Shown here: in pieces, positions 24,114-50,629 of the stretch
How positions within the stretch are numbered: the first letter of the stretch is position 1
How the letters are laid out: each line of letters opens with the position of its first letter
Origin: Denitrobaculum tricleocarpae
GTDB taxonomy: Bacteria; Pseudomonadota; Alphaproteobacteria; Kiloniellales; Kiloniellaceae
DNA: 64,000 bases
Reading direction: 5' to 3'
Assembly (NCBI RefSeq): GCF_007004665.1
Contig: NZ_ML660059.1
Location: forward strand, 62,001-126,000
Notes under the pieces: generated by a model
Databases searched by the model: none
What the model was told of the DNA's origin: nothing
The model's input: only the letters and a program-made list of their open reading frames with translations
Made by a program: the position numbers and the translations under genes

Positions 24114-24204
24114 CGACCCGGCCGCCCGCAAGAAAATGTGGCGGCAGACGCCGGGACGAGCTCGAGAAACGACCAACAAATATCTGTCTTACAAGGAGAA
24201 ACTC

Positions 24205-25203: not shown

Positions 25204-25224
25204 GGCCGGAATGGATAAAGCGGA

Positions 25225-25251
25225 CGGTGGCGCTCCAATCGGGCGCCACCG
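25225..25251 (+). terminator. Hairpin between phnD and phnE
   Basis: A perfect 9-bp stem, CGGTGGCGC / GCGCCACCG, with a 9-base loop (25234-25242), followed by TTTCTCTAT. It lies 21 bases after the phnD stop. It is either a partial terminator or an mRNA stabiliser that raises PhnD over PhnE. Confidence 0.6.
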
Positions 25252-25408
25252 TTTCTCTATCCGCTCTGGCTGTCGAAGCACTGGGTTGAGCACTCACAAG
25301 CACGCAAAACAAACGGCAGCGAAACCATCGCCGTTTGTGAGTCCTGAACCCCAGTGTGGTGGAACTGGTTCCACCCTACAGACCACTCTCAACTCCCGGA
25401 CCCAGACC

Positions 25409-26257: not shown

Positions 26258-26259
26258 TC

Positions 26260-27508: not shown

Positions 27509-27509
27509 A

Positions 27510-28082: not shown

Positions 28083-28126
28083 CACGCCCTGATCTCCGAT
28101 TTCTCCGCGCTCAGCAGTTTTGGCTC

Positions 28127-30051: not shown

Positions 30052-30099
30052 TTCGGCTGCCGCCTTTTTCAATCGTCATGGCTTTCGCTCCCACAGGCA

Positions 30100-31793: not shown

Positions 31794-31808
31794 GGTTTTG
31801 CTCGGCTC

Positions 31809-32951: not shown

Positions 32952-32954
32952 CGC

Positions 32955-33590
32955 TCACACCTCCACTTGCGTCGAACGGGGCAGCGCAGCAATGCGATCC
33001 TGCGCGCAGAAAATCATGTCGACACCCCGCGGAAAGCCGGCGTGATTCTCCTGCACCTGCTGCCAGAAACCCTGCGGCAGGCCCTTTGCCTGAAAGGTCT
33101 GTTTGCACTCAATTCCGGGTCCGCGCAGGATCACGCCACGGCTGTCGTCCAGGCGCTCAACCTGAATCAGCAGGGTTGCGGAACGATCGGGATATTCGTC
33201 GGTGCCGGCCGCAAAGCTGTCCAGCGGCGGAAGCTCGGCAGGGTCTGAAATGATGGCAAAGGCCGCATTGCCGATGGCCTCGACAAGCGGACAGCCACAG
33301 TGAAAACGCAGGTAGTCACCAAGCGCATGCGCCGCAGCGGCACCGGGATTCAGCCAGAGCGGCGTATCGAAATCCAGCAGGGTGAGCGCCGCAGCGGCGG
33401 TGGTCGGCCAGAGTGGGGTCGGAACATCCAGCGACAGTTCACAGGATAGGATACGTCCAGGCTGCGCCATGGCGCCAAGAAGCTTGCGATACATGGCCTG
33501 AGACTGCAGAACGGGATTATCAAAGCCTGCATTGGGTGCCCCGATGCCGTTCAGATCCAATCCTGAGGCCTCGGTGTCTGCTCCGATCAT
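32955..33590 (-). CDS. phnH: C-P lyase core subunit
   Basis: A 211-residue PhnH. Recognisable segments are GFDNPVLQSQAMYRKLLGAM, MAQPGRILS, ALTLLDFDTPLWL and RGVDMIFCAQDRIAALPRS near the C-terminus. It overlaps the phnG stop by one base. It is an essential structural member of the PhnGHIJ core, related by fold to PLP-dependent enzymes but without the cofactor lysine as far as is known. Confidence 0.95.
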   Translation of the reverse strand: MIGADTEASGLDLNGIGAPNAGFDNPVLQSQAMYRKLLGAMAQPGRILSCELSLDVPTPLWPTTAAAALTLLDFDTPLWLNPGAAAAHALGDYLRFHCGCPLVEAIGNAAFAIISDPAELPPLDSFAAGTDEYPDRSATLLIQVERLDDSRGVILRGPGIECKQTFQAKGLPQGFWQQVQENHAGFPRGVDMIFCAQDRIAALPRSTQVEV

Positions 33591-34111
33591 CAGTCTTCCC
33601 CCCTGACAAGCGTAAAGAAGTCTACCTTGGTCGCGGCTGACTTTGCCGAAGCCGCGCGCCGCCGCGCTGCAAGCCCGTCCGCGAGAGGCTTGAGGAGCGT
33701 GTCTTCCAGCGCGGAGCGCCTGGAGGAATCCTGCAGAAGAGCATCGAAAAGCGCGGCCAGCTCCGCATGACGGCGATCCCGTCCCGCCAGATAACCCTGA
33801 CCAGTAAAACCTTGGTTGCCATCACCACTCTCGGTGACGACCGCGCAGCGGGTCACGGTCATCTCGCCAAGATTGAACGCGGCGCCGGTCCCTCCGGCGC
33901 GGCCGCGCACCATGACAAGGCCGGTCTCGGGTTTTCGCAGCCAACGCCACGTGGGTTTGTCGTCCAGGCTGTCCCAGGCGCGGCTCAATTCGCCGGGGTC
34001 CGCCTTCGCGAGGATCGACATCCAGGCGCCGCGGTCGCTGTTTTGCGCGTTGGCATTGCCCGGCTCTCTCTGATCTTCGGAACTTGATGCTATATGATTT
34101 GACATATTCAT
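33590..34111 (-). CDS. phnG: C-P lyase core subunit
   Basis: A 173-residue PhnG with a polar N-terminal extension (about 27 residues, rich in Ser, Asn and Glu) before the conserved domain. Conserved parts are WMSILAKADPGELSRAWDSL, RGRAGGTGAAFNLGEMTVTR and GYLAGRDRRHAELAALFDAL. It is the first gene of the operon phnGHIJKLM-HD-2H. Its start codon lies inside the promoter of the divergent phnF gene. Confidence 0.94.
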   Translation of the reverse strand: MNMSNHIASSSEDQREPGNANAQNSDRGAWMSILAKADPGELSRAWDSLDDKPTWRWLRKPETGLVMVRGRAGGTGAAFNLGEMTVTRCAVVTESGDGNQGFTGQGYLAGRDRRHAELAALFDALLQDSSRRSALEDTLLKPLADGLAARRRAASAKSAATKVDFFTLVRGED

Positions 34112-34128
34112 CTATTCATCCATATGAT
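34099..34128 (+). promoter_or_regulatory. phnF: Sigma-70-like promoter for phnF
   Basis: TTGACA (34099-34104) and TATGAT (34123-34128) are separated by 18 bases, about 58 bases before the phnF start. The spacer overlaps the phnG start codon at 34109-34111. Two ATATGATTT(G/A)A direct repeats (from 34092 and 34122) frame it and may be regulator-binding sites. Confidence 0.5.
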
Positions 34129-34185
34129 TTAATCTAAAGTGAGGCAAAAGACCTGCGCCGTAAAGACTCAAAAAGTGAAGTTTTG

Positions 34186-34980
34186 ATGACTTCGCGTTTC
34201 GACGGCAGAGATGAGGCATTTGCTGACGGTGCGGCAAAAGACAGAAACGGCGTTGACGACATGATCGAACGGGGAACGGGTATCGCGCTGTGGCGCCAGA
34301 TCGAACAGCAGCTTGCGGAGGATGTCGCGGCGGGGGTCTATCCGGAGGGCAGCCGCCTGCCCACGGAGCCCGAACTGGCCGAACGCTTCGGGGTTAACCG
34401 GCACACACTCCGGCGCGCCGTCGCGGGCCTGGTCGAACAGGGTTTATTGCGCGTCGAGCAGGGACGGGGCACCTTCGTTCAGGAGCACGTGGTCGACTAC
34501 CTGATCGGCAAGCGCACCCGCTTTAGCGAGATCATAACCAAGCAGCACCGCAATCCCGCGGGCCGCCTGCTGCGCGCGCAGGAATTCGAGGCCGATCAGA
34601 CCGTTGCCAAGGGCCTGAAACTAAAACCGGGGACGCCCTGTATCTTGCTGGAGACCCTCAACGACGTCGACGGGCGGCCACTATCGGTTTCCTCGAACTA
34701 CTTCCCCGCCGGACGTTTTCCTGAACTGATCCCGGTCTATGCCGAGACCCGTTCGATCACAAAGGCCCTGACCCATCACGGCGCCGGAGACTATACCCGC
34801 CGCACCACCAAGGTCATGGCCCGCCTGCCCGAGGCGGAAGACGCCAAGGCCCTGAAGCAACCCGCCAGCAAACCGGTCCTGGTGGTCGAAAGCATCAATG
34901 TCGACCAGGACGGCAAGCCTGTACAGTTCTGCATCGCCCGCTTCGTCGCCGACCGTATGCAGATCGTCTTCGAGACCTAG
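34186..34980 (+). CDS. phnF: GntR/HutC-family regulator of phosphonate genes
   Basis: A 264-residue GntR protein with an N-terminal winged helix (about residues 28-90: GIALWRQIEQQLAEDVAAG, RLPTEPELAERFGVNRHTLR) and a C-terminal UTRA domain with SSNYFPAGRFPELIPV. The PhnF identity rests on its position divergent from phnG and on the segment RTRFSEIITKQHRNPAG, typical of PhnF. The ATG at 34186 has AAGTGAAG upstream. An ATG at 34261 is the alternative start. It is probably a repressor relieved by phosphonates or Pi status. Confidence 0.9.
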   Translation: MTSRFDGRDEAFADGAAKDRNGVDDMIERGTGIALWRQIEQQLAEDVAAGVYPEGSRLPTEPELAERFGVNRHTLRRAVAGLVEQGLLRVEQGRGTFVQEHVVDYLIGKRTRFSEIITKQHRNPAGRLLRAQEFEADQTVAKGLKLKPGTPCILLETLNDVDGRPLSVSSNYFPAGRFPELIPVYAETRSITKALTHHGAGDYTRRTTKVMARLPEAEDAKALKQPASKPVLVVESINVDQDGKPVQFCIARFVADRMQIVFET

Positions 34981-35267: not shown

Positions 35268-36665
35268 ATGGGGACAATTCCAGACGAATATATGCATCCG
35301 GAAATGATGGCGATCGGGGATTCGCTGTATCAGGGGGTGCGGTCGCTGACCATGAAGAACGGCATGATGCAGCTCTCGCCGCCGGCCCTTGCAGCCGAGG
35401 CGTTGGGCATCCGTCATAAATTCTCCTGCCCCGACCCGCAGCGGCCGATTGTGGTTGATATGGAAAAGTGGCTGCGCATGCTGCCGGATATCAGCGGCAT
35501 CAGAGAAGACCTGGGAAAGAACCTGGATTACTGGTTCGGCAGAGCGCCGGCGTCACCTTCCGGCAGACTGTTCTTCGAGAACATCTCCGTCGCCTCGGCC
35601 ACCATCGCGGATCTCTACAGTCAGACCTGGCAGACGTCCGACGATTTTCTGAAAACCCTGCCGCCGGGTGCGAAAAACAAGATCAAAAAGCTCAAACTCG
35701 GTCAGATTAAACTGAGCCCGACCATTCAGTCGCTCAACGCGCGCTTCACCCTGAACCCTTCCGGCAAAGCCGCGTTCCGGAACCTCAGCCAGGTCGGCAT
35801 GGTCGCGGCGCGCAAGCCCAAACGTCTGCTGGTCAACATTGGTAGCAACAACGGGCTTTGGGATATCGCGTTCGAATGCAACCCGAACGGACGCATGACC
35901 TTCAGAGCTGAACTGCGGCGGCTTGCAAGAGAACTCAATGCCCTGCCGCCGGAGGTCGAACACATATACTTCAACAACCTGGGGCTCCCGAGCACCGTCC
36001 CAAACCTCATGCCCGTGCCGGATATGGTCGAATGGCACGAGGCCAAGAAACCGGGCAGAGGCAAATATTACGACAAGTACGAAAACCGCTTCGGCTTCGG
36101 TTACGGCCAGATGACCGGCAATCAGCTGAAAAAACTCGATGAACACATCATGGCCGTGAACAAGGAAGCGCAGCAAATTCTTAAATCCGCGTTTGACAAC
36201 CCGGCGCGGCTGCACTTCGTCGACGTCGCAAAGCTGCTCCTCTCTTACGATTCGAAGCACCAGAAACGCACGGCCAACAACGTCGTAAAGCTGAACAACG
36301 GCAAGACCATCACCAACGTCATGATCAACGCCAGCCTCTTCGGCAACTTCCGGCGCGGCGGCACGCAGGGGCTCGACGGCATGCATGCCACGGTCGTGGG
36401 TTACGGCCTGATGGCCCAGCAGGTTCTGGACTGCATCAAGAGGGCGGAGGCGGGAGTCAATTCGAAGAAGATCGACCTGGATGCAGCTTTTGACCGGGAC
36501 AAATTGCTCAACGATATGCCCCAGATCTGGAATGCCGGCCTCTGGCTCTGGCGCGACATCCGCCGGGCGCGTGCCGACAACCGGCCTGATCCGGTCGATG
36601 GCTCGGATGACGAGGCCTTACGGGATGTCATGACCCTGGCGAGCCAGGCGGCAGGGCAAGCCTAG
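35268..36665 (+). CDS. Large SGNH/GDSL-family hydrolase
   Basis: A 465-residue protein with the four SGNH landmarks spread through an enlarged domain: block I MAIGDSLYQGVRSLT (Ser19), a Gly-containing turn, block III VNIGSNNGLWDI, and block V LDGMHATVVGYG, which provides the Asp-x-x-His pair. Ordinary SGNH esterases are 200-250 residues, so there are about 200 extra residues (roughly 70-190 and 240-330). There is no signal peptide, so it is probably cytoplasmic. The ATG at 35268 has GGGGGAG upstream. Its TAG stop is the first three bases of the 139-bp repeat copy 2. Substrate unknown. Confidence 0.72.
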   Translation: MGTIPDEYMHPEMMAIGDSLYQGVRSLTMKNGMMQLSPPALAAEALGIRHKFSCPDPQRPIVVDMEKWLRMLPDISGIREDLGKNLDYWFGRAPASPSGRLFFENISVASATIADLYSQTWQTSDDFLKTLPPGAKNKIKKLKLGQIKLSPTIQSLNARFTLNPSGKAAFRNLSQVGMVAARKPKRLLVNIGSNNGLWDIAFECNPNGRMTFRAELRRLARELNALPPEVEHIYFNNLGLPSTVPNLMPVPDMVEWHEAKKPGRGKYYDKYENRFGFGYGQMTGNQLKKLDEHIMAVNKEAQQILKSAFDNPARLHFVDVAKLLLSYDSKHQKRTANNVVKLNNGKTITNVMINASLFGNFRRGGTQGLDGMHATVVGYGLMAQQVLDCIKRAEAGVNSKKIDLDAAFDRDKLLNDMPQIWNAGLWLWRDIRRARADNRPDPVDGSDDEALRDVMTLASQAAGQA

Positions 36666-36964: not shown

Positions 36965-37858
36965 ATGCTTCAGATTGCATCACTCCGGCGGGCGCCGGAG
37001 ACGGGCAGCGGAACACCGCATGCCGGCACCACTGACTCGAACCTCTCTACGCAGCTGGGGTCTCAAGGCCTGAAGACCCCGCTCTATCACCAGATTTATC
37101 TGATCCTGAAGGGGCAGATTACAGACGGAGTCTATAGCACCGACGCACGCCTGCCCAGCGAACAGGATCTGACGGAACGCTTCGGTGTCTCGCGGATCAC
37201 AGCAAAACGAGCCATGGACGAACTGGCAGCAGAAGGTCTGGTGGTGCGGGAACGCGCCCGTGGCACAAGGGTGATTTATCAGCCGCCGTCCGCACCCATC
37301 GCGTCCTCCGTCGAGGGATTGCTGGAAAACCTGATTGCAATGGGCCTGGAGACCACGGTCAAGCTTTTGGAATTTGCCTACTTGCCCGCCCCGAACTCCG
37401 TCGCGGAAGCTCTGGAGATCGAGAGGGGCGCAGAAGTGCAGAGAGCGGTGCGGGTGCGCACCCTCGACAGTGCTCCCTTCTCCCATCTGACAACTTACGT
37501 CCCGAGCGCGCTCGGGCGTCAGTTCAGCGCGGAGGAGCTCTCGAGCCTGCCGCTGCTTTCCCTGCTGGAGCGCTGCGGCGTAAAGGTCGATTCTGCCTCG
37601 CAAACGATCTCCGCAACCCTGGCAGACCACGTGGTTGCAAAATGCCTGGGTACCGACCCGGGCGCTGCACTGATGAAGATTTCGCGGGTGGTCCGCGATC
37701 AGAACGGAATGCCGGTTGAGTTCATCACCGCGCTCTACCGTCCGGACCGCTATCAGTACCGCATGTCGCTCTCGCGGGTGCAGGGCGAGACGGAAAAGCG
37801 ATGGGCGGCCGACGACAACGCCGACAAGTCCGAGCTGCTAAAAGCCGGTGCATCCTGA
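36965..37858 (+). CDS. GntR-family (HutC subfamily, UTRA) transcriptional regulator
   Basis: A 297-residue regulator with a roughly 38-residue N-terminal tail. The winged helix follows (LPSEQDLTERFGVSRITAKR, AMDELAAEGLVVRERARGTR) and a UTRA effector domain covers about residues 115-280. The start is at 36965, with AGGGAA six bases upstream. Its stop overlaps the start of the LeuC-like gene (TGATG at 37856-37860), so it belongs to the same transcript as the catabolic island and very probably controls it. The ligand would be the pathway substrate or product. Confidence 0.9.
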   Translation: MLQIASLRRAPETGSGTPHAGTTDSNLSTQLGSQGLKTPLYHQIYLILKGQITDGVYSTDARLPSEQDLTERFGVSRITAKRAMDELAAEGLVVRERARGTRVIYQPPSAPIASSVEGLLENLIAMGLETTVKLLEFAYLPAPNSVAEALEIERGAEVQRAVRVRTLDSAPFSHLTTYVPSALGRQFSAEELSSLPLLSLLERCGVKVDSASQTISATLADHVVAKCLGTDPGAALMKISRVVRDQNGMPVEFITALYRPDRYQYRMSLSRVQGETEKRWAADDNADKSELLKAGAS

Positions 37859-39165
37859 TGTCGGATCAAGCTCTTCACGCACCTGCCCGTCAAACCCTGG
37901 CGGAAAAGATCATCGCGCGGGCTGCCGGGCACTCCAGGGTCATGGCGGGCGAGATCGTCACCTGCAACGTCGACCTGGCGATGATCCACGACAGCGGTGG
38001 ACCGCGCCGGGTGAAACCCATGCTGGAACGCCTGGGTGTGAAGGTTTGGGATCCGGCCAAAATCGTGCTGGTTTCGGACCACTATGTCCCGGCTGTCGAT
38101 GCGCAGAGCGCAGCAATCCTGAAGCTGACCCGGGATTGGGCGCGGGATCAGGAGATCGAAAAGTTTTACGACCAGCAGGGCATCTGCCACGTGGTGCTGC
38201 CTGAGCGCGGACACCTGGCCCCGGGCATGTTCGTGGTCGGTGGCGACAGTCACTCGCCAACGGGCGGCGCATACGGCGCCTACATGTTCGGCGTCGGTGC
38301 GACCGATATGGCCGGCGTCCTGGCGACCGGCAAAACCTGGATCAAGGTGCCGGAAACCATCCTGTTGCGTTGGCACGGATCACTCGGCGAGGGCGTGACG
38401 GCGAAAGACATGATGCTGAAGCTCTGCGCAACCCTGGGCATGGATGGCGGCGACTATCAGGCCATCGAATACAGTGGCGCCACACTCGCCGGGCTTTCTA
38501 TGCAGGAACGCATGACGCTGAGCAACATGGCTGCCGAACTGGGGGCGCAGACCGGACTGATCGCACCGGACGAAGTCACCGCCAGGGCCATCACAGATGC
38601 AGGGGGCGATCCAGGTGATTGGGAAAACTGGTCGGGTGATGAAGACGCGACCTATCGGGCGATCCATGACTTCGATGCGGCGGAACTGCCGCCCCAGATC
38701 GCCGCACCCCATAGCCCGGCAAACGCGGGATCGGTCGAGGATGTGGAGAAGGTCGCAGTTGATCAGTGCTACATCGGCGCCTGTACCGGCGCGAAGCTGG
38801 TCGATCTGCATGCCGCCGCGCGCGTGCTCAAAGGCCGCAAGGTGGCCAGCACCACCCGCCTGATGATCGCGCCTGCCTCGACACGGACAACCGCGGCGGC
38901 GGCATCGGATGGCTCGCTGGCCGCGCTGACGGAAGCAGGCGCGATCCTGCTGCCCTCCGGCTGTGGCGCTTGCGCGGGCTATGGCGCGGGTGTGCTGGCC
39001 GAGGGCGAAGTCTGCATGGCCTCCACCGCACGCAACTTCAAAGGCCGTATGGGATCGCGGGAGTCTCTGGTCTATCTGGGATCGCCCTTCAGCGTGGCCG
39101 CGACGGCGGTCATGGGCCATATCGCCGACCCGCGGCCTCTGCTGGCGGAAGGATCGGAGCTATGA
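37858..39165 (+). CDS. Aconitase-superfamily hydratase, large subunit (LeuC/DmdA-like)
   Basis: A 435-residue [4Fe-4S] hydro-lyase subunit. Cluster cysteines are in YIGACTGAKLVDL and PSGCGACAGYGAGVLA; AASTARNFKGRMG-type sequence (STARNFKGRMG) and VVGGDSHSPTGGAYGAYMFG are the other active-site blocks. It opens ALHAPARQTLAEKIIARAAG, the LeuC-like opening. The partner small subunit is the next gene. The subunits are separate, as in isopropylmalate isomerase and dimethylmaleate hydratase, and in contrast to aconitase. No leuA/leuB is nearby and the next enzyme is a C-C lyase, so a catabolic role (hydrating an unsaturated dicarboxylate) fits better than leucine synthesis. Confidence 0.9.
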   Translation: MSDQALHAPARQTLAEKIIARAAGHSRVMAGEIVTCNVDLAMIHDSGGPRRVKPMLERLGVKVWDPAKIVLVSDHYVPAVDAQSAAILKLTRDWARDQEIEKFYDQQGICHVVLPERGHLAPGMFVVGGDSHSPTGGAYGAYMFGVGATDMAGVLATGKTWIKVPETILLRWHGSLGEGVTAKDMMLKLCATLGMDGGDYQAIEYSGATLAGLSMQERMTLSNMAAELGAQTGLIAPDEVTARAITDAGGDPGDWENWSGDEDATYRAIHDFDAAELPPQIAAPHSPANAGSVEDVEKVAVDQCYIGACTGAKLVDLHAAARVLKGRKVASTTRLMIAPASTRTTAAAASDGSLAALTEAGAILLPSGCGACAGYGAGVLAEGEVCMASTARNFKGRMGSRESLVYLGSPFSVAATAVMGHIADPRPLLAEGSEL

Positions 39166-39665
39166 GCAGCGAACTCACCGCGGGGGGAGTCTGGAAATAT
39201 GGCGACGGGGTTGACACGGACCTGCTGGCGCCCGGCATTTACATGAAAGGCTCCATGGAAGAGCTCGCAAGCCATTGTCTCGAAGCGATCGATCCCTCTT
39301 TCGCGCGCCAGGTCAAAAGTGGCGACATTGTCGTTGCAGGCAAAAACTTCGGCATCGGCTCCAGCCGCGAACAGGCCGCCCAGGTCCTGCGGATGCTGGG
39401 AGTCACCGCCGTTATCGCGAGGTCGTTCGGAGGCATCTTCTACCGCAACGCCTTCAATCTAGGCCTCTATGCCCTGGTGTCCGACGACGTCGATCGGATC
39501 GAAAAGGATCATCGGATATCGGTCGATCCGCTCGCGGGCCGCATCCTCAACGAAACGACCGGCGAGACCCTTACCTGCGAAAAAGTTCCGGAGCACCTTG
39601 CCGCCATCGTCTCGGCGGGCGGGCTGATCCCCCATCTCGAAAAAACACTGAGGAAAACTTTATGA
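39162..39665 (+). CDS. Aconitase-superfamily hydratase, small subunit (LeuD/DmdB-like)
   Basis: A 167-residue swivel-domain subunit. It starts at ATG 39162, overlapping the large-subunit stop. The substrate-recognition loop is VAGKNFGIGSSREQAAQVLR, followed by VIARSFGGIFYRNAFNLGL, both diagnostic. The residue after the SSRE motif and the YGDGVDTD start block resemble dimethylmaleate or isopropylmalate dehydratases. Its stop overlaps the start of the lyase gene (ATGA), indicating coupled expression. Confidence 0.9.
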   Translation: MSSELTAGGVWKYGDGVDTDLLAPGIYMKGSMEELASHCLEAIDPSFARQVKSGDIVVAGKNFGIGSSREQAAQVLRMLGVTAVIARSFGGIFYRNAFNLGLYALVSDDVDRIEKDHRISVDPLAGRILNETTGETLTCEKVPEHLAAIVSAGGLIPHLEKTLRKTL

Positions 39666-40531
39666 CGCCGCAGAAACGGCTCAGGCAACAGCTCGCTGGC
39701 GACGGCATCGTAGTCGCGCCGGGAGTCTACGATGCCTTCGGCGCCATGATGGCCGAGCGCGCGGGCTTTGAGACACTCTATCTCTCCGGCGCTTCGATCT
39801 CCTACACTCAGCTAGGCAGCCCGGATATCGGCCTGACCGGCATGGACGAAGTTGCGGGCGTGGTCGGACGGATCCGAGAGCGGGTGGATCTGCCGATCGT
39901 CGTCGACGGAGATGCGGGCTTCGGCAACGCCCTGAACGTACAGCGCACGGTCCGCGTTTTCGAACGCAGCGGCGCGAGCGCCATCCAGCTGGAAGATCAG
40001 CAACTGCCCAAACGCTGCGGGCACCTGGACGGCAAGAAGCTTGTCAGCGTAGGCGAGATGAGCGGCAAGATCAAAGCCGCCACCGACAGCCGGACGGATA
40101 GCGACACGGTCATCATCGCCCGCACCGACGCTGTCACGGTGGAAGGTCTGGACGCGGCCCTGGAGCGCAGCGAGGCCTATGTCGAGGCCGGCGCGGACAT
40201 GCTTTTCGTCGAGGCGGTCAAGACCGAAGAAGACATGCGCCGGGTGATCGAGCAGTTCGCCGGGCGGCTGCCCATCATGGCCAACATGGTCGAAGGTGGC
40301 AAGACACCTGTTATGCCCGCCGCACAACTCGCCGGGATCGGCTTCAAGCTGGTGATCTTCCCCGGCGGCCTGGTCCGGGCTATCGCGAAAACCATGAGCG
40401 CCTATTTCGAAGCCCTGCACCGCGAGGGAACGACCGCATCCTTCAAGGAGAACATGCTCGATTTCACCCAGCTCAACGATCTGCTCGGCACCCAGGCGAT
40501 CCTGGACGGCAGCAAAAAGTACGAGGACTGA
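39662..40531 (+). CDS. Isocitrate lyase/PEP mutase-superfamily C-C lyase
   Basis: A 289-residue TIM-barrel enzyme. The motif DGDAGFGNALNVQRTV provides the Mg-binding Asp residues. IQLEDQQLPKRCGHLDGKKL carries the lyase-type catalytic Cys119 in the gating loop (KRCGH). PEP mutases and phosphonopyruvate hydrolases lack this Cys, so a C-C lyase such as 2-methylisocitrate, citramalate or 2,3-dimethylmalate lyase is favoured. Next to the two-subunit hydratase, the arrangement is that of dimethylmaleate hydratase plus 2,3-dimethylmalate lyase (products pyruvate and propionate). The true substrate remains to be shown. Confidence 0.9.
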   Translation: MTPQKRLRQQLAGDGIVVAPGVYDAFGAMMAERAGFETLYLSGASISYTQLGSPDIGLTGMDEVAGVVGRIRERVDLPIVVDGDAGFGNALNVQRTVRVFERSGASAIQLEDQQLPKRCGHLDGKKLVSVGEMSGKIKAATDSRTDSDTVIIARTDAVTVEGLDAALERSEAYVEAGADMLFVEAVKTEEDMRRVIEQFAGRLPIMANMVEGGKTPVMPAAQLAGIGFKLVIFPGGLVRAIAKTMSAYFEALHREGTTASFKENMLDFTQLNDLLGTQAILDGSKKYED

Positions 40532-40535
40532 ACGC

Positions 40536-42275
40536 ATGACATCGATTGATCCCGTCACGCTCTCGGTCCTGAAAGGCCGGCTGGAACAGATCGCCGACGA
40601 GATGGACGCGACCCTGTTCCGCTCGGCCTTCAATCCGATCATCGCGGAAGCCCACGATGCCAGCCACGGTCTTTACGACGCAAAGACCGGCGACACGCTG
40701 ATCCAGGGCAAGAGCGGCCTGCCGGTCTTCGTCGGCGCCATGTCCTTTGCCGTAAAGGCCGTCATCGACAAGGCCGCCGCCGCGGGCGAAGTCCCACAGG
40801 AGGGCGATGTTTACATCTTCAACGATCCCTACGACGGCGGCACCCATCTGTCGGACTTCAAGCTGGTGCGCCCCTTCTACCGGAACGGCGAGCTCTTCTG
40901 CTATCTGGCCTCGGTCGGGCACTGGCACGATGTGGGCGGTAACGTCCCCGGAAACTACAATCCCGTGGCCACCGAGTGCTTCCAGGAAGGCATGCTGATC
41001 CCGCCGGTCAAGCTCTATGACAAGGGCGAGCTGCGGCAGGACATCATCACCATCCTGCAGGCCAATTCGCGCCTGCCCGGCAGCCTTTACGGCGACCTCA
41101 ACGGGCAGCTCAATGCGCTGGATCTGGGTGTGCAGCGCCTGCACAAGCTGCTCGACGAATATGGTGAAACGCCGATTTCGGAAACCCTGGTCGAACTGCG
41201 CAAACGGGCCGCGCAGCTGATGTCCAGTTTCATCTCGGAACTGCCGGAGGGACGCTACGCTGCGGAAGACTGGCTGGACAACGACGGCATCACCGACGAG
41301 CCCCTGAAGATCGCCCTGGATATGGAGATCCGGGACGGGCGCATGACCCTGGACTTTTCCCGCAGTTCACAGGCTTGCGCCGGACCGGTCAACATCGCGC
41401 GCTCGACCACGGTTGCGTCCTGCTACGTTGCCCTGAAGCATATCTTCAAGGACGTCCCCGCGAACGCCGGTGTGCTCGATCCCATCGACTTCGTAATCCC
41501 GGACAACAGCCTGCTGAGTGTAAAGGCCCCGAAACCGGTCGGCGGTTATACGGAGACCATCCTGCGCGTCATCGACGTGATCTTCGTCGCCCTGTCACAG
41601 GCAAATCCGGCGATCACCAACGGCTGCGCCTACGGCACCATCAATGCCCTGTCGCTGGCGGGCCATCGCAAGGACGGCCGCCGCTGGGTCATGTTCTCCT
41701 TCTTCGGCGGCGGCCACGGCGGCCATCCGGACGGCGACGGCCTCAACCACGGCAATGCACCGATCTCCACGGCGACCATTCCTCCCCTGGAGATTCTGGA
41801 AGCCGCCTATCCCGTGCGCTTCACCCAATGGGCGCTGCGCCCGGACAGCGGCGGTGTCGGCGCCCATCGCGGCGGCTGCGGCGCGATCTATGAACTCGAG
41901 CTTCTGGAGGAAAAGGCGGAAGTCTTCCTCTTTGGCGAGCGCGGCAAGTTCGCCCCGCCCGGCGTGGCCGGAGGATCGGAGGGCGCGAAGAATCTTTTCA
42001 AATACCAGCAGGACGACGGCGAGCATTCGCCGCCCATGGCCTCGAAGATGGTCGGCATCAAGCTCACAAAGGGGCAACGGCTGCATCTGGAGACGCCGGG
42101 TGGCGGCGGTTATGGCCCCGCCCTGGAGCGCGACCCGAAAGAGGTCGGTGAGGACGTGCGCCTGGGTTACGTCAGCCCCGAGGCCGCGCGCGCAGACTAC
42201 GGCTGCGTCATCGACGATCAGGGCAGGCCTGACATGAATGCGACCGAAGCCTTGCGCCGGGAGAGAGTTTCGTGA
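40536..42275 (+). CDS. Hydantoinase B/oxoprolinase family protein
   Basis: A 579-residue HyuB-type subunit. Metal-site segments are FNDPYDGGTHLSDFKL and SVGHWHDVGGNVPGN, and the Gly-rich FGGGHGGHPDGDGLNHGN and SGGVGAHRGGCGA are conserved in the family. It pairs with the HyuA-type ATPase encoded next. HyuA/B complexes use ATP to hydrolyse lactam or imide rings (N-methylhydantoin, 5-oxoproline) or to carboxylate ketones (acetone carboxylase). No third acetone-carboxylase subunit gene is present, so ring hydrolysis is preferred. Confidence 0.92.
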   Translation: MTSIDPVTLSVLKGRLEQIADEMDATLFRSAFNPIIAEAHDASHGLYDAKTGDTLIQGKSGLPVFVGAMSFAVKAVIDKAAAAGEVPQEGDVYIFNDPYDGGTHLSDFKLVRPFYRNGELFCYLASVGHWHDVGGNVPGNYNPVATECFQEGMLIPPVKLYDKGELRQDIITILQANSRLPGSLYGDLNGQLNALDLGVQRLHKLLDEYGETPISETLVELRKRAAQLMSSFISELPEGRYAAEDWLDNDGITDEPLKIALDMEIRDGRMTLDFSRSSQACAGPVNIARSTTVASCYVALKHIFKDVPANAGVLDPIDFVIPDNSLLSVKAPKPVGGYTETILRVIDVIFVALSQANPAITNGCAYGTINALSLAGHRKDGRRWVMFSFFGGGHGGHPDGDGLNHGNAPISTATIPPLEILEAAYPVRFTQWALRPDSGGVGAHRGGCGAIYELELLEEKAEVFLFGERGKFAPPGVAGGSEGAKNLFKYQQDDGEHSPPMASKMVGIKLTKGQRLHLETPGGGGYGPALERDPKEVGEDVRLGYVSPEAARADYGCVIDDQGRPDMNATEALRRERVS

Positions 42276-44347
42276 GCCCTCAGGACCGCAAAACCGTCGT
42301 CGGCGTAGATGTCGGCGGAACCTACACCGATGTCTTTTTCCTGAACGAGGCGGACGGCGCCTGCGATGTGGCCAAGGTGCCCACCACACGCGGCGACCAG
42401 TCTCAGGGCATCCGCAACGGCATTCAACAACGGCTCGACCATTTGGGCGGTATCTCGACCATCGTCCATGGCACCACCGTCGGCACCAATGCGCTGCTGG
42501 AACGCAAGGGTGCGCGCTGCGGCGTGATCACGACGAAGGGCTTTCGCGACGTGCTGGAAATGCGCCGCCGCGACCGGCCGCAGACCTGGGGCCTTTGGGG
42601 CAAATTCGAACCCATCGTGCCACGGGATCTGCGGGTAGAGGTGGATGAACGGGTCCTCTCCGACGGCACGCTTCTGGAACAGGTTGATCCGAACCAGGTT
42701 CAGGCCGCCGCGCGCCTGCTGCTCGAGCGGGGCGCAGAGTCGGTTTGTGTCTTCTTCATCAATTCCTATGCAAACCAGGAAAACGAACGGGCCGCAGTGC
42801 AGGCAGTCCGGGAGATCTGGCCAAGCGAACATGTCACGGCATCCTCGGAAATCCTGCCGGAAGTGCGGGAGTTCGAACGGGCATCGACCGCGTCGCTGAA
42901 CGCCTATCTCCAGCCGCCGGTGGGTGACTACCTCGAGCGCCTCGAAGCGGGGCTTCGGGACGGCGGCTTCGGCGGGCAGGTTCTGATCGTCCAGTCGAAC
43001 GGCGGTGTCATGGCGGTGGAGACCGCCCGGCGTTTTCCGGTGCGCACGGCTCTCTCCGGCCCGGCGGCGGGCGTTATCGCCGCGGCGCATATTGCGGGCT
43101 CGGCAGGTTTTCCGAACGTCATCACCTGCGACATGGGCGGCACCAGCTTCGACGTGTCCCTGATCGCGGACGGCAAGAGCGCGCTCTTCCCGCAGACCTC
43201 CATCGATTTCGGCATGGTGATCCGCACGCCTATGATCGAGATCACCACCATCGGTGCAGGCGGCGGCTCCATCGCCTGGGTCGACCGCGGCGGCCTGCTG
43301 CAGGTTGGGCCTGAGAGCGCGGGTTCCGATCCAGGACCGGTCTGTTACGGCCTCGGCAATGACAGGCCGACCGTCACCGATGCCAACGTGGTCATGGGCC
43401 GGATCAACGCGGAACGGCCAATAGGCGGCAAGCTTGACCGGCTCGACGTCGAAGCCTCCAAGGCCGCGATCCTGAAGCATGTTGCCGAACCGCTCGGCCT
43501 TGATGTAATGAGCGCTGCGGAAGCCATTATCCGGGTGGCCAACGCCAAGATGGCGGGTGCGATCCGGCTGGTCTCGGTCGAGCGCGGACACGACCCGAAA
43601 AATTTCTCCGCCATGCCTTTCGGTGGCGGTGGCGCGCTGCACACCGGCGCTCTTATCAAGGACGTCGGGCTCAAGTCTGCCCTGGTGCCACGCTACCCCG
43701 GCGTGACCAGCGCCCTTGGCTGTGTGATCGCGGACATGCGCCACGACCGGGTGATGACGATCAGTCAGATGCTCGAAGATCTCGACGTCCCCGCCTTGGA
43801 CCGGCAGATGAGCGAGACCGCTGCCGCGGGACAAGAATTGCTAAACGCGGCAGATGTCGTATTTGAAGGGACAGAATACCTTTTTGAACTCGATATGCAC
43901 TACCTCGGGCAGACACATACGGTATCTGTTTCGCTGCCTCTCAAGTTCGAGGGCGGGACGACCGGGGTCACCGGTGAGATAATCCGGACCACCTTCGAGG
44001 ATACTTACCGTCAGACCTATGGCCGCCTGCTTGATGGAATCGCGATCCGGATCATGAACCTGCGTGTGACCGTGGTGGGCAAACGTCCGAAGTTCGATCT
44101 CTCGATCCTTGCCCCCAAAACCGATGGCAAGAGCCGGGCCAAACCGACCGGCACCCGCGAGGTCTGGGCCGATGGCACCTGGCATGAGGCGGCAACTTAC
44201 GAACGCCTGGTGCTGCCGGAGGGAACCAGGGTGCCCGGCCCGGCGATCCTGGAACAGCCGGATACGACGATCTTTATCGATCCGGACCTGGAAGGGCTGG
44301 TCGATGGCTTCGGCAATCTCGTGATCACACGAAAGGAAGAAGGCTGA
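42272..44347 (+). CDS. Hydantoinase A/oxoprolinase family protein
   Basis: A 691-residue HyuA-type ATPase subunit (ASKHA fold), GTG start overlapping the hyuB-like stop. It has GVDVGGTYTDVFFLNEA (phosphate 1), HGTTVGTNALLERKGARCG, QSNGGVMAVETARRFPVRT, LSGPAAGVIAAAHIAG, TCDMGGTSFDVSLI and GGGGALHTGALI. It phosphorylates the ring carbonyl for the HyuB subunit. The order B then A is common for this family in catabolic clusters. It is followed one base later by the isochorismatase-fold gene. Confidence 0.92.
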   Translation: MSPQDRKTVVGVDVGGTYTDVFFLNEADGACDVAKVPTTRGDQSQGIRNGIQQRLDHLGGISTIVHGTTVGTNALLERKGARCGVITTKGFRDVLEMRRRDRPQTWGLWGKFEPIVPRDLRVEVDERVLSDGTLLEQVDPNQVQAAARLLLERGAESVCVFFINSYANQENERAAVQAVREIWPSEHVTASSEILPEVREFERASTASLNAYLQPPVGDYLERLEAGLRDGGFGGQVLIVQSNGGVMAVETARRFPVRTALSGPAAGVIAAAHIAGSAGFPNVITCDMGGTSFDVSLIADGKSALFPQTSIDFGMVIRTPMIEITTIGAGGGSIAWVDRGGLLQVGPESAGSDPGPVCYGLGNDRPTVTDANVVMGRINAERPIGGKLDRLDVEASKAAILKHVAEPLGLDVMSAAEAIIRVANAKMAGAIRLVSVERGHDPKNFSAMPFGGGGALHTGALIKDVGLKSALVPRYPGVTSALGCVIADMRHDRVMTISQMLEDLDVPALDRQMSETAAAGQELLNAADVVFEGTEYLFELDMHYLGQTHTVSVSLPLKFEGGTTGVTGEIIRTTFEDTYRQTYGRLLDGIAIRIMNLRVTVVGKRPKFDLSILAPKTDGKSRAKPTGTREVWADGTWHEAATYERLVLPEGTRVPGPAILEQPDTTIFIDPDLEGLVDGFGNLVITRKEEG

Positions 44348-44348
44348 C

Positions 44349-44951
44349 ATGAGCGCCATAGAGCTTGGACAAACCGCGTTGCTGCTGGTGGATATGCAGA
44401 ACGACTTTCTGCATCCGGAAGGAGCCTACGCACGCGGCGGCGCGAAGTCGGATGCCATCGCCGCCTTGCCCGCGCGTTTGAAACCAGTCGCGGAGATGAT
44501 GCGCGAGAAGGGCGGATGGATCGTCTCGACACAGTTCACCCTGGTGCCCGGCAAGAACGGCGCCCCCTTTATCTCTCCTCATCTCAGAGAGCTGCGGCCT
44601 TTCCTGGGCAAAGGCGACTTTGCACCGGGCTCTTTCGGCCAGGCCCTGATCGACGATCTTGCGCCGGCGGATATCTCGGTCGAAAAGGTTGCCTACTCCG
44701 CCTTTTATATGAGCCGTCTCGAATGGGTGCTGGGGCGCGCGGGGATCAAACACCTGGTCTTCGCCGGGATTGTAACCAACGGCGGGGTCGCCTCCACCTT
44801 ACGTGACGCGCATGTGCGCGACTTTCATACGACGGTTCTCAGCGACGGCTGCGCAGCTTTTGACCAGAGCGTTCACGAAACGGCCATCGCCAGCATGAAG
44901 GGAATCGCAGAGATCAATAGCTGTGCCGATTTCCTGGCCAACCTGGATTAA
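44349..44951 (+). CDS. Isochorismatase-fold hydrolase with the catalytic cysteine replaced
   Basis: A 200-residue isochorismatase-like protein. The first Asp (LLVDMQNDFLHPEG) and the Lys (SVEKVAYSAFYMS) of the usual Asp-Lys-Cys triad are present. At the Cys position, where amidases of the fold read roughly TNVCVEST, this one reads IVTNGGVASTLRDAH, with Gly for Cys. Thioester chemistry as in nicotinamidase or N-carbamoylsarcosine amidase is therefore not possible, unless C848-type residues elsewhere substitute; the Cys in SDGCAAF is a conserved scaffold position. A PhzD-like hydrolysis without a Cys remains possible. Confidence 0.85.
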   Translation: MSAIELGQTALLLVDMQNDFLHPEGAYARGGAKSDAIAALPARLKPVAEMMREKGGWIVSTQFTLVPGKNGAPFISPHLRELRPFLGKGDFAPGSFGQALIDDLAPADISVEKVAYSAFYMSRLEWVLGRAGIKHLVFAGIVTNGGVASTLRDAHVRDFHTTVLSDGCAAFDQSVHETAIASMKGIAEINSCADFLANLD

Positions 44952-44957
44952 ACTGCC

Positions 44958-46394
44958 GTGACTATTCTCGCATCAGAGGGCGTCAGCTTTCCCATCACAC
45001 TCCCGATCGTGATCATCGGTTCAGGCGCCTGCGGCCTGACCGCGGCCCTCGCGGCGAAAGATGCCGGTGCCGAGGTTCTGGTGCTGGAACGCGACCCGGT
45101 GCCCTCCGGTTCCACCGCGCTGTCCTCCGGACTGATCCCCGCCGCAGGCACCCGCTTCCAGACATCCGTCAAGGTCGAAGACACACCCGCCATCTTTGCG
45201 GAGGATATCCAGGCAAAGGCAGGCGGAGATGCCGAGCAGGCGATCGTAGACTGCGTGACGGAAAATGCCGGTCCCTGCCTCGAATGGCTCGCCGACCGCC
45301 ATGACCTGGAGTGGGTGGTGCTCGATGACTTTCTCTATCCCGGCCATTCCCGCTACCGGATGCATGCGGTTCCGGAAAAGACCGGTTCAGCCCTCATCGG
45401 CCGCCTTATCACCGCAGCGCAGACTGCTGGGGTCGACATCATGACGGATGCCCTGGTCACGGCTCTCTATGCGGAGAGCAACACTGCCCGCATCTGCGGA
45501 CTGCAGATCACGCGGCCGGACGGGACGAAGGAAGACATTGGCTGTGAGGCTTTGATTCTCGCCTGCAACGGTTACGGCGGCAATGCGGAAATGATCCGGA
45601 AATACATCCCCGAAATGGCCGGTGCCGACTACTTCGGTCACGCAGGAAATCAGGGCGACGCCGTCATCTGGGGCCATGAGCTGAGCGCCGCGACGCACCA
45701 TCTCAGTGCCTGTCAGGGCCATGGGTCCGTTGCGACACCTCACGGAATTCTCATCACCTGGGCGCTGATGATGGAGGGCGGTATTCAGGTCAATCTGGCC
45801 GGTGAACGTTTTTCGAACGAGCACCAGGGTTATTCCGAACAGGCGGTGGACGTGCTGAAACAGCCTGAAGGCGTGGCCTGGAACATCTTCGACGAACGCC
45901 TGCACTATCTCGGCATGGCTTTCGAGGACTACCAGAATGCGGTGCTGCAGGATGCCGTACGCAAGGCCGACTCTCTGGAGGACCTGGCCGCAGTCACCGG
46001 ACTGCCTCTCGATGCCCTGGGTAAATCCATCGCCGAAACGGCGGGCGGTTCCACGGATCGTTTCGGCCGGAATTTCGCCGCCACGAAACCTCTTGAGCCG
46101 CCCTACCGCGCCGTCAAGGTCACCGGAACTCTCTTTCACACCCAGGGAGGCTTGCGGATCAACGACGATGCGCGCGTTCTGAATGAGGACGCATCGCCGC
46201 TGCCCAACCTCTTCGCGGGCGGTGGGGCCGCCTGCGGCGTATCGGGCCCGCGAATCAACGGTTATCTCTCGGGAAACGGCCTTTTGACTGCCGTCACCCT
46301 GGGGCGCATCGCCGGTCAACGCGCCGCTGAACTTGTCGCGGGACACAGCCTGAAGCTGGTCATGGGTGGTGGCCGTCGCTCGACGCTGGGGTAA
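44958..46394 (+). CDS. FAD-dependent oxidoreductase, fumarate reductase/tricarballylate dehydrogenase type
   Basis: A 478-residue FAD_binding_2 protein. The dinucleotide fold IVIIGSGACGLTAALAAKDAG is at residues 15-35, followed by SGSTALSSGLIPAAGTR. The substrate domain has ALILACNGYGGNAEMIRKYI and FHTQGGLRINDDARVL, where Gly-Gly-Leu-Arg matches the substrate-gripping Arg of the fumarate reductase/succinate dehydrogenase family. It ends with NLFAGGGAACGVSGPRINGY. It probably desaturates a dicarboxylate, making the substrate for the hydratase encoded upstream. GTG start at 44958. No cytochrome or Fe-S partner gene is adjacent. Confidence 0.87.
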   Translation: MTILASEGVSFPITLPIVIIGSGACGLTAALAAKDAGAEVLVLERDPVPSGSTALSSGLIPAAGTRFQTSVKVEDTPAIFAEDIQAKAGGDAEQAIVDCVTENAGPCLEWLADRHDLEWVVLDDFLYPGHSRYRMHAVPEKTGSALIGRLITAAQTAGVDIMTDALVTALYAESNTARICGLQITRPDGTKEDIGCEALILACNGYGGNAEMIRKYIPEMAGADYFGHAGNQGDAVIWGHELSAATHHLSACQGHGSVATPHGILITWALMMEGGIQVNLAGERFSNEHQGYSEQAVDVLKQPEGVAWNIFDERLHYLGMAFEDYQNAVLQDAVRKADSLEDLAAVTGLPLDALGKSIAETAGGSTDRFGRNFAATKPLEPPYRAVKVTGTLFHTQGGLRINDDARVLNEDASPLPNLFAGGGAACGVSGPRINGYLSGNGLLTAVTLGRIAGQRAAELVAGHSLKLVMGGGRRSTLG

Positions 46395-48063: not shown

Positions 48064-49143
48064 ATGACCGATATTCCAACCGTGACCGGACTTAAAAGCC
48101 GCGCCGTTATTGCGCCTCTCCAACGGCCCGTGCGCACGGCTGTCGGCACGCTGCCGAATGCACCGCTGGTGCTCATCGACGTGGAAACCGACCTGGGCGT
48201 GACCGGACAGGCTTATGTTTTCGGCTATACCCCGGTGACCTTGAAAGCGATTGTCGCATTCCTGTCGGAACTTGAAGAGAGCCTGATCGGGCAGAGCGTT
48301 GCACCGGTCGAGCAGGCGCGGTTCTACGAGAATCGCTTTCGGCTTTTGGGACGTCAGGGTCTGGTTGGCATGGCTCTCTCCTGTCTCGATATGGCGCTGT
48401 GGGACGCGCTGGGAAAGGCCGCCGGGTTGCCGGTGGTCAACCTGCTCGGCGGCCGGGCGCGGCCAATTCAGGCCTACGACAGCTATGGCGTTGTCGATCC
48501 GAAGGAGGACCGGGAAGACTTGGAGCGCTCGCTTGAACGCGGTTTCCGGGCAATCAAGATCAAGATCGGGGATGGCGATCTGGTGCGCGATATCGCAATG
48601 GTCTCCGGCGTGCGCGAAATCATCGGGCCCGACGTCGAGTTAATGGTCGACTTCAATCAGTCGCGCAGCGTTCCCGATGCCGTCCACAGGATCGAGGCTT
48701 TGAGCGAATATAATCTGGCATGGGTGGAAGAACCGGTCCCTGCCGAGGACTTCGTGGGCCATGCCGAGGTCCGCGCCGCCTCAACGCCGCCGATCCAAAC
48801 CGGCGAGAACTGGTGGTTCCCGCAGGATATGGCCAAGGCGATCGATGCTGGCGCCTGCGACTGCGCCATGCCGGATCTCATGAAGATCGGCGGCATTACG
48901 GCCTGGCTCCGGGCCGCGGGAATTGCCGAAGCCAACGCGATTCCGGTTTCCAGCCATCTCTTCGTGGAAGCCAGCGCCCACGTTCTGCCGGTCACACCAA
49001 CCGCGCATTATCTGGAGTTCCTCGATATAGCCGGCTCGGTGCTGCAGGAGCCAATGGAGGTGAAGGACGGCCACGTCACGGCGCGGGGTCCCGGTCTGGG
49101 AATGACCTGGGACGAAGATGCCGTCGCACGCTTCACCGCGTGA
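48064..49143 (+). CDS. Mandelate racemase-like enolase-superfamily enzyme
   Basis: A 359-residue enolase-superfamily protein. Lys165/Lys167 (AIKIKIG), Asp196 and Asn198 (VDFNQS), Glu222 (WVEEPV), Glu248 (TGENW), Asp271 (PDLMKIGG), His298 (SSHLF) and Glu318 (HYLEF) match the Pseudomonas putida mandelate racemase residues (164/166, 195, 197, 221, 247, 270, 297, 317) with a constant offset of one, as I recall that enzyme; the length is the same too. Racemisation of a 2-hydroxy acid is therefore likely. No mandelate dehydrogenase gene is adjacent. It is followed by a MmgE/PrpD gene. Confidence 0.9.
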   Translation: MTDIPTVTGLKSRAVIAPLQRPVRTAVGTLPNAPLVLIDVETDLGVTGQAYVFGYTPVTLKAIVAFLSELEESLIGQSVAPVEQARFYENRFRLLGRQGLVGMALSCLDMALWDALGKAAGLPVVNLLGGRARPIQAYDSYGVVDPKEDREDLERSLERGFRAIKIKIGDGDLVRDIAMVSGVREIIGPDVELMVDFNQSRSVPDAVHRIEALSEYNLAWVEEPVPAEDFVGHAEVRAASTPPIQTGENWWFPQDMAKAIDAGACDCAMPDLMKIGGITAWLRAAGIAEANAIPVSSHLFVEASAHVLPVTPTAHYLEFLDIAGSVLQEPMEVKDGHVTARGPGLGMTWDEDAVARFTA

Positions 49144-49258
49144 GCGCTGTGATGGTCCGATTGCGGATAAGAAAGAGTCGGCGAGGGAACCGCCTTGCTG
49201 GTGATATCAGGCTAACATCTGCTGAGATTCAGGATATCCTCGTGGCGGAGACTCTGTT

Positions 49259-50629
49259 TTGACAATCTCAAAAATCCTGGACTTTCTCCACGGCCTGTCC
49301 TTCGACGACCTGCCTTCTGACGTCAAACATCAGGCCTGGCGTTGCCTTCTCGATCTTTGCGGGGTCGCCGCGGCGGGCAGCGGCACGGAACTGTCCAGGA
49401 TCATTCGCGATCATGCCGCCAATCACTTTGGAGCGGGCAACGGATCGGCTGTCCGTATGCTTTTCGACGGCCGCCGCGTCAGTCCGGCAGGCGCGGCCCT
49501 CGCGGGAGGTATGGCCATAGACAGTGTCGATGCCCATGACGGTTATCCCGCAGCCAAAGGCCATGCGGGTGCGGCGGTCCTACCGGCCCTGCTGGCCCTG
49601 GCCGAGGGCCCGGACGAGAAAACGTGCATGGACGCGGCAGAATTCATGACGAGTTTAGTGATCGGTTACGAGCTGGCCATTCGCGCGGGCGTGACACTCC
49701 ATGCAACGGCGCCGGACTATCACACGTCCGGCGCCTGGGTGGCGGTTGCCTGCGCAGGTCTGGGTGCCCGGCGCCTGAAGCTTGACCCTGGGCGGAGCCG
49801 CCACGCCCTCGGGATTGCCGAGTATCACGGACCGCGCAGTCAAATGATGCGCTGCATCGATCACCCTACCATGCTGAAGGATGGTGCAGGCTGGGGAGCC
49901 ATGGCCGGAGTATCTGCTGCCTATCTTGCTGCCGACGGCTTCACCGGAGCGCCGGCCATCACGCTCGAATCCGGGGACGCGGCTGGTCACTGGTCAGATC
50001 TTGGAACCCGCTGGCTCATGCTGGATCAGTACTTCAAACCCTATCCCGTCTGCCGCTGGGCGCAGCCCGCTACCGAGGCAGCGCTTGATCTGCGCAAGGC
50101 CCATGGCCTCAAGGCATCCGATATCGATCATGTCGAGGTTGTCTCTTTTCATGAGGCATGCCGGTTGGCGACACGCGAACCGGTGGATACCGAAGCGGCG
50201 CAGTATTCTCTGCCCTTTCCCCTGGCTGCGGCATTGGTACATGGCGAACTCGAGCCAGCGCAGATCGATGGGGCGGCCCTTAGGGACCCCGAAACCCTGC
50301 GTCTCAGCCGCGGCATGATCCTGTCGGAAGAGGCCAGCTACAACGCCCACTTTCCGGCGGAGCGTTTCGCGCATGTAGCACTCTATCTCAAAGACAGAAG
50401 GATACTGACGTCCGAACCTTCTTGCGGACGAGGTAACGCCGAAAACCCTCTCAGCGACGCAGAGATCCGCGCAAAATTCCGGCGTTACACCGCAAGACGG
50501 CTCTCGGGCGCCGCAAGCGACGAGCTGGAGAAAGCGATCCAAGAAATCTCCACTGGCCGTGGCACGGCAACCTCTCTGCTGAAGGCAGTGACCGCACCGG
50601 CTCTCGTGGAGCAAGCTGACAGCCCTTAG
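49259..50629 (+). CDS. MmgE/PrpD family protein
   Basis: A 456-residue protein of the 2-methylcitrate dehydratase/cis-aconitate decarboxylase/iminodisuccinate epimerase family. It has an all-helical first domain with AGGMAIDSVDAHDGYPAAKGHAG (the conserved Asp and His near the active site) and HGPRSQMMRCIDHPTMLKDG. LDQYFKPYPVCRWAQPATEA is the other family block. TTG start at 49259 with GGAG nine bases upstream. It probably removes or moves protons on a dicarboxylate. It lies 115 bases after the racemase gene and may be in the same transcript. Its stop overlaps the convergent acyltransferase stop. Confidence 0.85.
   Translation: MTISKILDFLHGLSFDDLPSDVKHQAWRCLLDLCGVAAAGSGTELSRIIRDHAANHFGAGNGSAVRMLFDGRRVSPAGAALAGGMAIDSVDAHDGYPAAKGHAGAAVLPALLALAEGPDEKTCMDAAEFMTSLVIGYELAIRAGVTLHATAPDYHTSGAWVAVACAGLGARRLKLDPGRSRHALGIAEYHGPRSQMMRCIDHPTMLKDGAGWGAMAGVSAAYLAADGFTGAPAITLESGDAAGHWSDLGTRWLMLDQYFKPYPVCRWAQPATEAALDLRKAHGLKASDIDHVEVVSFHEACRLATREPVDTEAAQYSLPFPLAAALVHGELEPAQIDGAALRDPETLRLSRGMILSEEASYNAHFPAERFAHVALYLKDRRILTSEPSCGRGNAENPLSDAEIRAKFRRYTARRLSGAASDELEKAIQEISTGRGTATSLLKAVTAPALVEQADSP

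Follow-up and report, generated by a model that had tools for sequence, protein, structure and literature searches.

Hydration by a LeuCD-type hydratase followed by cleavage by a lyase of the ICL superfamily is the dimethylmaleate hydratase/2,3-dimethylmalate lyase step of the nicotinate fermentation of Eubacterium barkeri. In Aspergillus nidulans, imide rings are described as being opened by a PuuE-related cyclic imidase (HxnM) before the amide is hydrolyzed by an amidase (HxnN) (PMC9304392), and the ATP-dependent lactamases and hydantoinases covered in PMC11033972 include caprolactamase, the oxoprolinase OplAB, and N-methylhydantoinase. An operon that combines features of these systems lies at positions 36965-46394 of the window, i.e., the 64,000-nucleotide stretch of Denitrobaculum tricleocarpae DNA analyzed here (contig NZ_ML660059.1, positions 62,001 to 126,000; assembly GCF_007004665.1). 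Its eight genes, all on the + strand, encode a GntR regulator, a LeuCD-type hydratase, a C-C lyase, the HyuB and HyuA subunits of an ATP-dependent hydantoinase/oxoprolinase, an isochorismatase-fold protein, and a FAD-dependent oxidoreductase (Table 1). Pfam confirmed each of the families named in an earlier sequence-only reading of the locus, which had also noticed that the genes overlap or nearly touch. Neighboring genes overlap by up to 4 bases or lie at most 6 bases apart, and a single transcript is therefore likely; with its start corrected to 37858, the LeuC gene overlaps the GntR stop. We tentatively favor a reading in which the operon would take a cyclic imide to pyruvate and glutarate; hematinic acid itself is a possible, if doubtful, substrate.

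The locus departs from each of the described systems. No mutase or methylitaconate isomerase is encoded among the eight genes; HyuAB, the isochorismatase-fold protein, and the FAD protein would act ahead of the hydratase and lyase, and relatives of the operon carry glutarate genes. The likeness to HxnM/HxnN is confined to imide ring opening followed by amide hydrolysis, whereas the operon has an unrelated ATP-binding opener and a cysteine-less isochorismatase fold, with hydration and C-C cleavage predicted to follow. Both HyuA and HyuB carry the complete Pfam domain sets of the ATP-dependent lactamases and hydantoinases, yet they scored far below the cut-offs of the caprolactamase equivalogs CapA/CapB (522 and 315 of 1000 bits) and they stand in a different gene context. 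In agreement with the sequence-only reading, which knew of no pathway with this set, we found no description of it in the open-licence literature. The operon is a widely conserved, undescribed bacterial gene cluster, and would represent a new pathway variant assembled from known families.

Conservation was scanned with the 200-residue isochorismatase-fold protein as the locus marker. A total of 228 relatives were confirmed and 80 loci kept, 48 of which were well covered (at least 8.5 kb before and at least 1.6 kb after the marker gene); the 32 short-flank loci were excluded. HyuA and HyuB each accompany the marker gene at all well-covered loci (48/48), indicating that the HyuB-HyuA-isochorismatase-fold grouping is more than chance. 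A set of genes not conserved together would have spoken against the route first proposed, and this core was found intact throughout. The lyase accompanies it in 42/48 loci, the FAD protein in 33/48, an LIV-type ABC transporter in 27/48, the window-type LeuC and a GntR protein similar to the window's regulator in 23/48 each, MmgE/PrpD in 10/48, TRAP parts in 7/48, and a bacterial-type LeuC in 3/48. The six enzyme genes (LeuC, lyase, HyuB, HyuA, isochorismatase fold, and FAD protein) are complete in 16/48. HyuA lies directly upstream of the marker gene in 66 of the 71 loci with at least 2.2 kb of upstream sequence. The marker itself was detected in 30 of 387 genomes sampled across Alphaproteobacteria (E <= 1e-55); of 397 genomes drawn from the whole phylum, 10 carried it (E <= 1e-50; one outside the class), counting its own genome in both cases. 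Window-type LeuC alone, MmgE alone, both, and neither were recorded at 22, 9, 1, and 16 of the 48 loci, respectively (Fisher p 0.011, uncorrected for kinship). The idea that MmgE simply replaces LeuCD holds partially at most, as Neorhizobium, Roseomonas, and Tistrella have LeuCD together with MmgE.

Glutarate as a product is suggested by the genes that join the cluster in relatives. The Tistrella operon runs GntR-HyuB-HyuA-isochorismatase fold-acyl-CoA dehydrogenase-CaiB-LeuC-LeuD, and its dehydrogenase matches human glutaryl-CoA dehydrogenase (GcdH) along its length (E 1.5e-185). The GcdH proteins of the relatives combine full-length matches with the SGYRS and YEGTHD motifs of glutaryl-CoA dehydrogenase. 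Three Tistrella genomes hold a second GcdH copy (74% identity) on another contig, and the operon copy is therefore an extra one. CaiB scores best against succinate-glutarate CoA-transferase, at 533 bits compared with 295 bits for the family ranked second. At locus L066, Jiella avicenniae has the order lyase-HyuB-HyuA-isochorismatase fold-GcdH-CaiB, and in a further genome (L122, L136) CaiB follows on one side of the isochorismatase-fold gene and on the other of LeuCD, standing between them, while the lyase and GntR genes are divergent. Plasmid p1 of Burkholderia plantarii, which was retrieved by a plasmid search with CaiB as the sole query among the module genes (33 records, 9 viewed), carries LeuCD, the FAD protein, and the lyase in line with a porin, EtfB, EtfA, GcdH, and CaiB; identities to the window proteins are 58% (LeuC), 49% (LeuD), 48% (FAD protein), and 55% (lyase). 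In the D. tricleocarpae genome (6.4 Mb; Kiloniellaceae and Pelagibius are the closest named relatives), GcdH (77% identity) and CaiB (54% identity) are encoded outside the operon. Clusters of Peribacillus, Haloferax, and Acidiphilium have CaiB and an HMG-CoA-lyase-family protein accompanying LeuCD, which is consistent with the same cut being made on a CoA ester.

These glutarate genes bear on two alternatives. The sequence-only reading envisaged cyclic imides or lactams with alkyl side chains, and a short-chain version of it would have alkyl imides or their diacids (dimethylmaleate, citraconate, methylethylmaleate) converted to pyruvate plus acetate, propionate, or butyrate. The hydratase small subunit does belong to the LeuD/DmdB family, and one of the structures matched by the lyase (1.8e-48) bears the title 2,3-dimethylmalate lyase, but the lyase matches methylisocitrate lyases better, and the in-cluster GcdH and CaiB of the relatives would be left unexplained. 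We thus consider this alternative unlikely: the cyclic imide remains the likely substrate type, whereas the glutarate genes favor a substrate with a propionate arm over dimethylmaleate. Alternatively, glutarate could come straight from glutarimide by HyuAB and amide hydrolysis, with the hydratase, lyase, and FAD protein serving other imides. The pathway is indeed split in Tistrella, where HyuAB, the isochorismatase fold, GcdH, and CaiB share one operon and a lyase is found in a second, separate one (L135, 941-14647) together with an OYE-family protein, a GntR regulator, an ABC transporter, MmgE, a tautomerase-like protein, a FAD protein, two Asp/Glu racemases, and another MmgE. However, LeuCD is still in the HyuAB operon of Tistrella, and lyase and GcdH share one cluster in Jiella and B. 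plantarii, which renders direct release from glutarimide quite improbable.

In the proposed route to pyruvate and glutarate, the hydratase and lyase would produce the final cut. The hydratase small subunit exceeds the cut-off of TIGR02087, the LeuD/DmdB family. The recognition loop of LeuD was dropped as proof of a tricarboxylate: window-type proteins recovered by motif search mostly have YMK, and the bacterial-type LeuD has Lys too. The lyase does carry the KRCGH motif whose cysteine had been noticed, and each of its five columns is at least 97% conserved in 94 aligned lyases. It resembles PrpB in its fold, in KRCGH, and in its nearest solved structures, which are methylisocitrate lyases for the predicted model (pLDDT [predicted local distance difference test] 92). 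It differs in scoring 308-309 bits against TIGR02317 (2-methylisocitrate lyase), below the equivalog cut-off of 354, and in two sequence stretches: operon lyases have NMVEGG and mostly FPGG in place of the N-x-TEFG and YCCG, YPLS, or YPRS of three aligned PrpB chains. These glycines might allow a longer acid to fit. The nearest paralogue in the genome is 41% identical. A specific 2-methylisocitrate lyase working in a methylcitrate pathway, the counter-explanation raised in the sequence-only reading, was discarded on the ground that none of the lyases encoded in the genome reaches the prpB cut-off (354 bits; highest score, 308), a search that did not extend to prpC and prpD.

HyuAB probably catalyzes ATP-dependent ring hydrolysis. 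HyuAB shares its superfamily with carboxylases of the acetophenone/acetone carboxylase type (E 1.4e-90 to the gamma subunit of acetophenone carboxylase), but both subunits score higher against hydrolases and different families of cyclic-amide hydrolases take the place of HyuAB in three variant clusters, so that carboxylation appears very improbable. Two PuuE-family proteins (119-142 of 425 bits) adjoin an isochorismatase-family protein in B. plantarii and Acidiphilium, with no window-type HyuAB beside LeuCD/FAD, and a dihydropyrimidinase-family protein does so in Haloferax; a separate HyuAB pair occurs further on in the Acidiphilium plasmid. What unites the HyuAB, PuuE, and dihydropyrimidinase families is that they open the rings of cyclic amides, imides, or ureides. 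The tandem PuuE-family pair follows a cysteine-type isochorismatase on two distant plasmids (L151, 14216-16056; L160, 6046-7907), and the proteins are 59% and 45% identical pairwise.

The isochorismatase-fold protein was placed in the correct family by the sequence-only reading, which did not mention that its nucleophilic cysteine is missing. Alignment to RutB puts Gly146 at this position, which is Gly in 125 and Ala in 1 of 126 distinct sequences, and Cys in none (matches at E <= 1e-20 covering roughly 80% or more, after removal of duplicates). Asp15 and Lys113 of the triad are invariant in 32 sequences. Cys168 (44852-44854; DGCAAF) is invariant in 126/126 and lies away from the lost nucleophile position. 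TSGCVRAT is retained by the isochorismatase-family partners from the clusters of B. plantarii, Acidiphilium, and Haloferax, and a Peribacillus relative has Ser. The sequences thus mark the protein as not an ordinary cysteine amidase. Substituted maleic acid amides, among them a methyl-carboxyethyl amide as one of five compared, are described as cleaving by a ring closure within the molecule, which additional substituents and acid accelerate (PMC8751315). Because dialkylmaleamates cleave by such intramolecular catalysis, a general acid may suffice for amide cleavage without the cysteine.

The FAD protein, first described as fumarate-reductase-like, belongs to FAD_binding_2. Its resemblance to tricarballylate dehydrogenase (TcuA) is not a particular one: flavocytochrome c scored higher (245 versus 160 bits), both below cut-offs. 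Compared with the flavocytochrome c Fcc3, the positions of His365 and His504 are kept, whereas the catalytic Arg402 is replaced by Tyr in a GYSE stretch conserved in 82 sequences; Glu378, Arg381, and Arg544 correspond to Trp, Met, and Tyr. Across the 82 sequences, conservation extends to the stretches with the His, the Trp, and the two Tyr residues but not to the Met. A tyrosine base is known from ketosteroid dehydrogenases, and one in this protein would suit a neutral ring.

Taken together, these features outline a candidate pathway whose reactions, step order, and substrate we infer from sequence. The FAD protein would, if required, convert the succinimide form into the maleimide by desaturation, and HyuAB with ATP would open the C(=O)-NH-C(=O) ring to a substituted maleamate. 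The cysteine-less isochorismatase-fold protein would then aid ammonia release, its Asp and Lys serving as acid/base on a self-cleaving half-amide, before the triacid is hydrated by the LeuCD-type enzyme and the ICL-type lyase splits the product into pyruvate and glutarate. Glutarate would be taken in by the CoA-transferase and GcdH, which are encoded elsewhere in this genome and in-cluster in some relatives. A methylisocitrate-lyase-like cut that leaves glutarate requires a malate with CH2CH2COOH at C3, and if the other half is pyruvate, C2 would bear a methyl. As deduced from family chemistry, the dehydrated form would be 2-methyl-cis-homoaconitate, the open-ring form of hematinic acid, which is a product of the oxidation of tetrapyrroles such as chlorophyll and heme. 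The substrate that we tentatively favor is thus a substituted five-membered cyclic imide with a propionate side chain (a maleimide). A lactam or cyclic ureide may also serve, but the imide is favored because no later transamination is needed and no transaminase is encoded among the eight genes. Hematinic acid is obtained from chlorophyll a oxidized in vitro; it is reported in sweet potato leaves, where maleimides were not detected, and the same study cites occurrences of both in leaves undergoing senescence and in lake sediments (PMC7318184). We found no bacterial catabolic pathway for hematinic acid or maleimides in the open-licence literature.

Several observations weigh against the imide-to-glutarate route. 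Within reach of the marker, 13/48 loci have no recognized hydratase, 6/48 no lyase, and 15/48 no FAD protein, and the racemases, tautomerase-like proteins, and MmgE of some clusters have no step assigned. GcdH adjacency is rare (1/48 well-covered loci; L066), CaiB scores below the curated cut-off of succinate-glutarate CoA-transferase, and it failed as a general marker, as 7 of the 9 viewed plasmid records were negative for the module and 2 (Tistrella and B. plantarii) had it. Intramolecular cleavage of maleic acid amides is reported mainly at acid pH, and no recurrent tetrapyrrole neighbor family emerged from a selection, inspected by eye, of the open reading frame clusters around the loci. 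Finally, the nearest structures to the isochorismatase-fold protein are biuret, triuret, and ureidoacrylate hydrolases, and its model (pLDDT 91) is closest to the biuret and triuret hydrolases, pointing to ureides. Because the fold search favors ureido hydrolases, we retain as a rather unlikely alternative that HyuAB opens a substituted hydantoin, whose carbamoyl group is then taken off by the isochorismatase-fold protein. N-methylhydantoinase as the nearest structure to HyuA, PuuE being an allantoinase, and the Asp/Glu/hydantoin racemases of some clusters would be in line with such a substrate. However, an amino acid product would be expected, which the lack of a transaminase or deaminase gene among the eight does not accommodate; the missing cysteine disfavors carbamoyl hydrolysis by the usual route, and the hydratase and lyase would require a separate explanation.

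Table 1. Genes of the operon in window coordinates, with supporting matches
Product	Position	Strand	Evidence
GntR/HutC-type regulator, UTRA domain	36965..37858	+	Pfam UTRA 1e-33, GntR 1.4e-17
LeuC/homoaconitase-family hydratase, large subunit	37858..39165	+	TIGR01343 481 bits (cut-off 386), TIGR02086 458 bits (cut-off 410); Pfam Aconitase
LeuD/DmdB-family hydratase, small subunit	39162..39665	+	TIGR02087 171 bits (cut-off 109); Pfam Aconitase_C
ICL/PEP-mutase superfamily C-C lyase, methylisocitrate-lyase-like	39662..40531	+	prpB 309 bits, below cut-off 354; Pfam PEP_mutase/ICL
HyuB, hydantoinase/oxoprolinase B	40536..42275	+	Pfam Hydantoinase_B 9.7e-162; closest structure PDB 6yra (6yra_B), 1.1e-76
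HyuA, ATP-binding hydantoinase/oxoprolinase A	42272..44347	+	Pfam Hydantoinase_A; closest structure PDB 7hk5, N-methylhydantoinase, 3.8e-120
Isochorismatase-fold protein without nucleophilic cysteine (Gly146)	44349..44951	+	Pfam Isochorismatase 4.6e-37; alignment to RutB
FAD_binding_2 oxidoreductase, probable desaturase	44958..46394	+	Pfam 1.9e-47; flavocytochrome c 245 bits, below cut-off 285

Beyond the operon end, an enolase-superfamily (MR) protein and an MmgE/PrpD protein are encoded at 48064-50629. They were rejected as members of the system, since close orthologues accompany the operon in L011-L013 and L128 only; MR matches at other loci are at most 32% identical. A protein combining a PNPOx/CREG barrel with DUF2470, a make-up known from HugZ-like heme proteins, is encoded at 57744-58496, about 11 kb from the operon, and is no evidence for a tetrapyrrole reading. 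Upstream, a 465-residue open reading frame (35268-36665) with no Pfam match at 1e-5 separates the operon from a phosphonate region (24097-34980), where the family scan covered five genes: a phosphonate-binding protein (24097-25203, +), an ABC ATPase (30100-30894, -), PhnI (31809-32951, -), PhnH (32955-33590, -), and a GntR-UTRA regulator (34183-34980, +).

The public names of the operon enzymes, such as 3-isopropylmalate dehydratase, oxaloacetate decarboxylase, and cysteine hydrolase, are generic or misleading. If the proposed route is true, a pathway would be assigned to an operon whose marker occurs in 30/387 sampled alphaproteobacterial genomes, and the cysteine-less isochorismatase fold would exemplify an enzyme that relies on its substrate being reactive by itself. 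It is conceivable, although we hold it doubtful, that the operon recycles the final remnants of chlorophyll, heme, and bilins, with hematinic acid and its dihydro form being taken up, opened, freed of nitrogen, hydrated, and split; just as speculatively, Betaproteobacteria, Bacillota, and haloarchaea may have arrived at this recycling by convergence.

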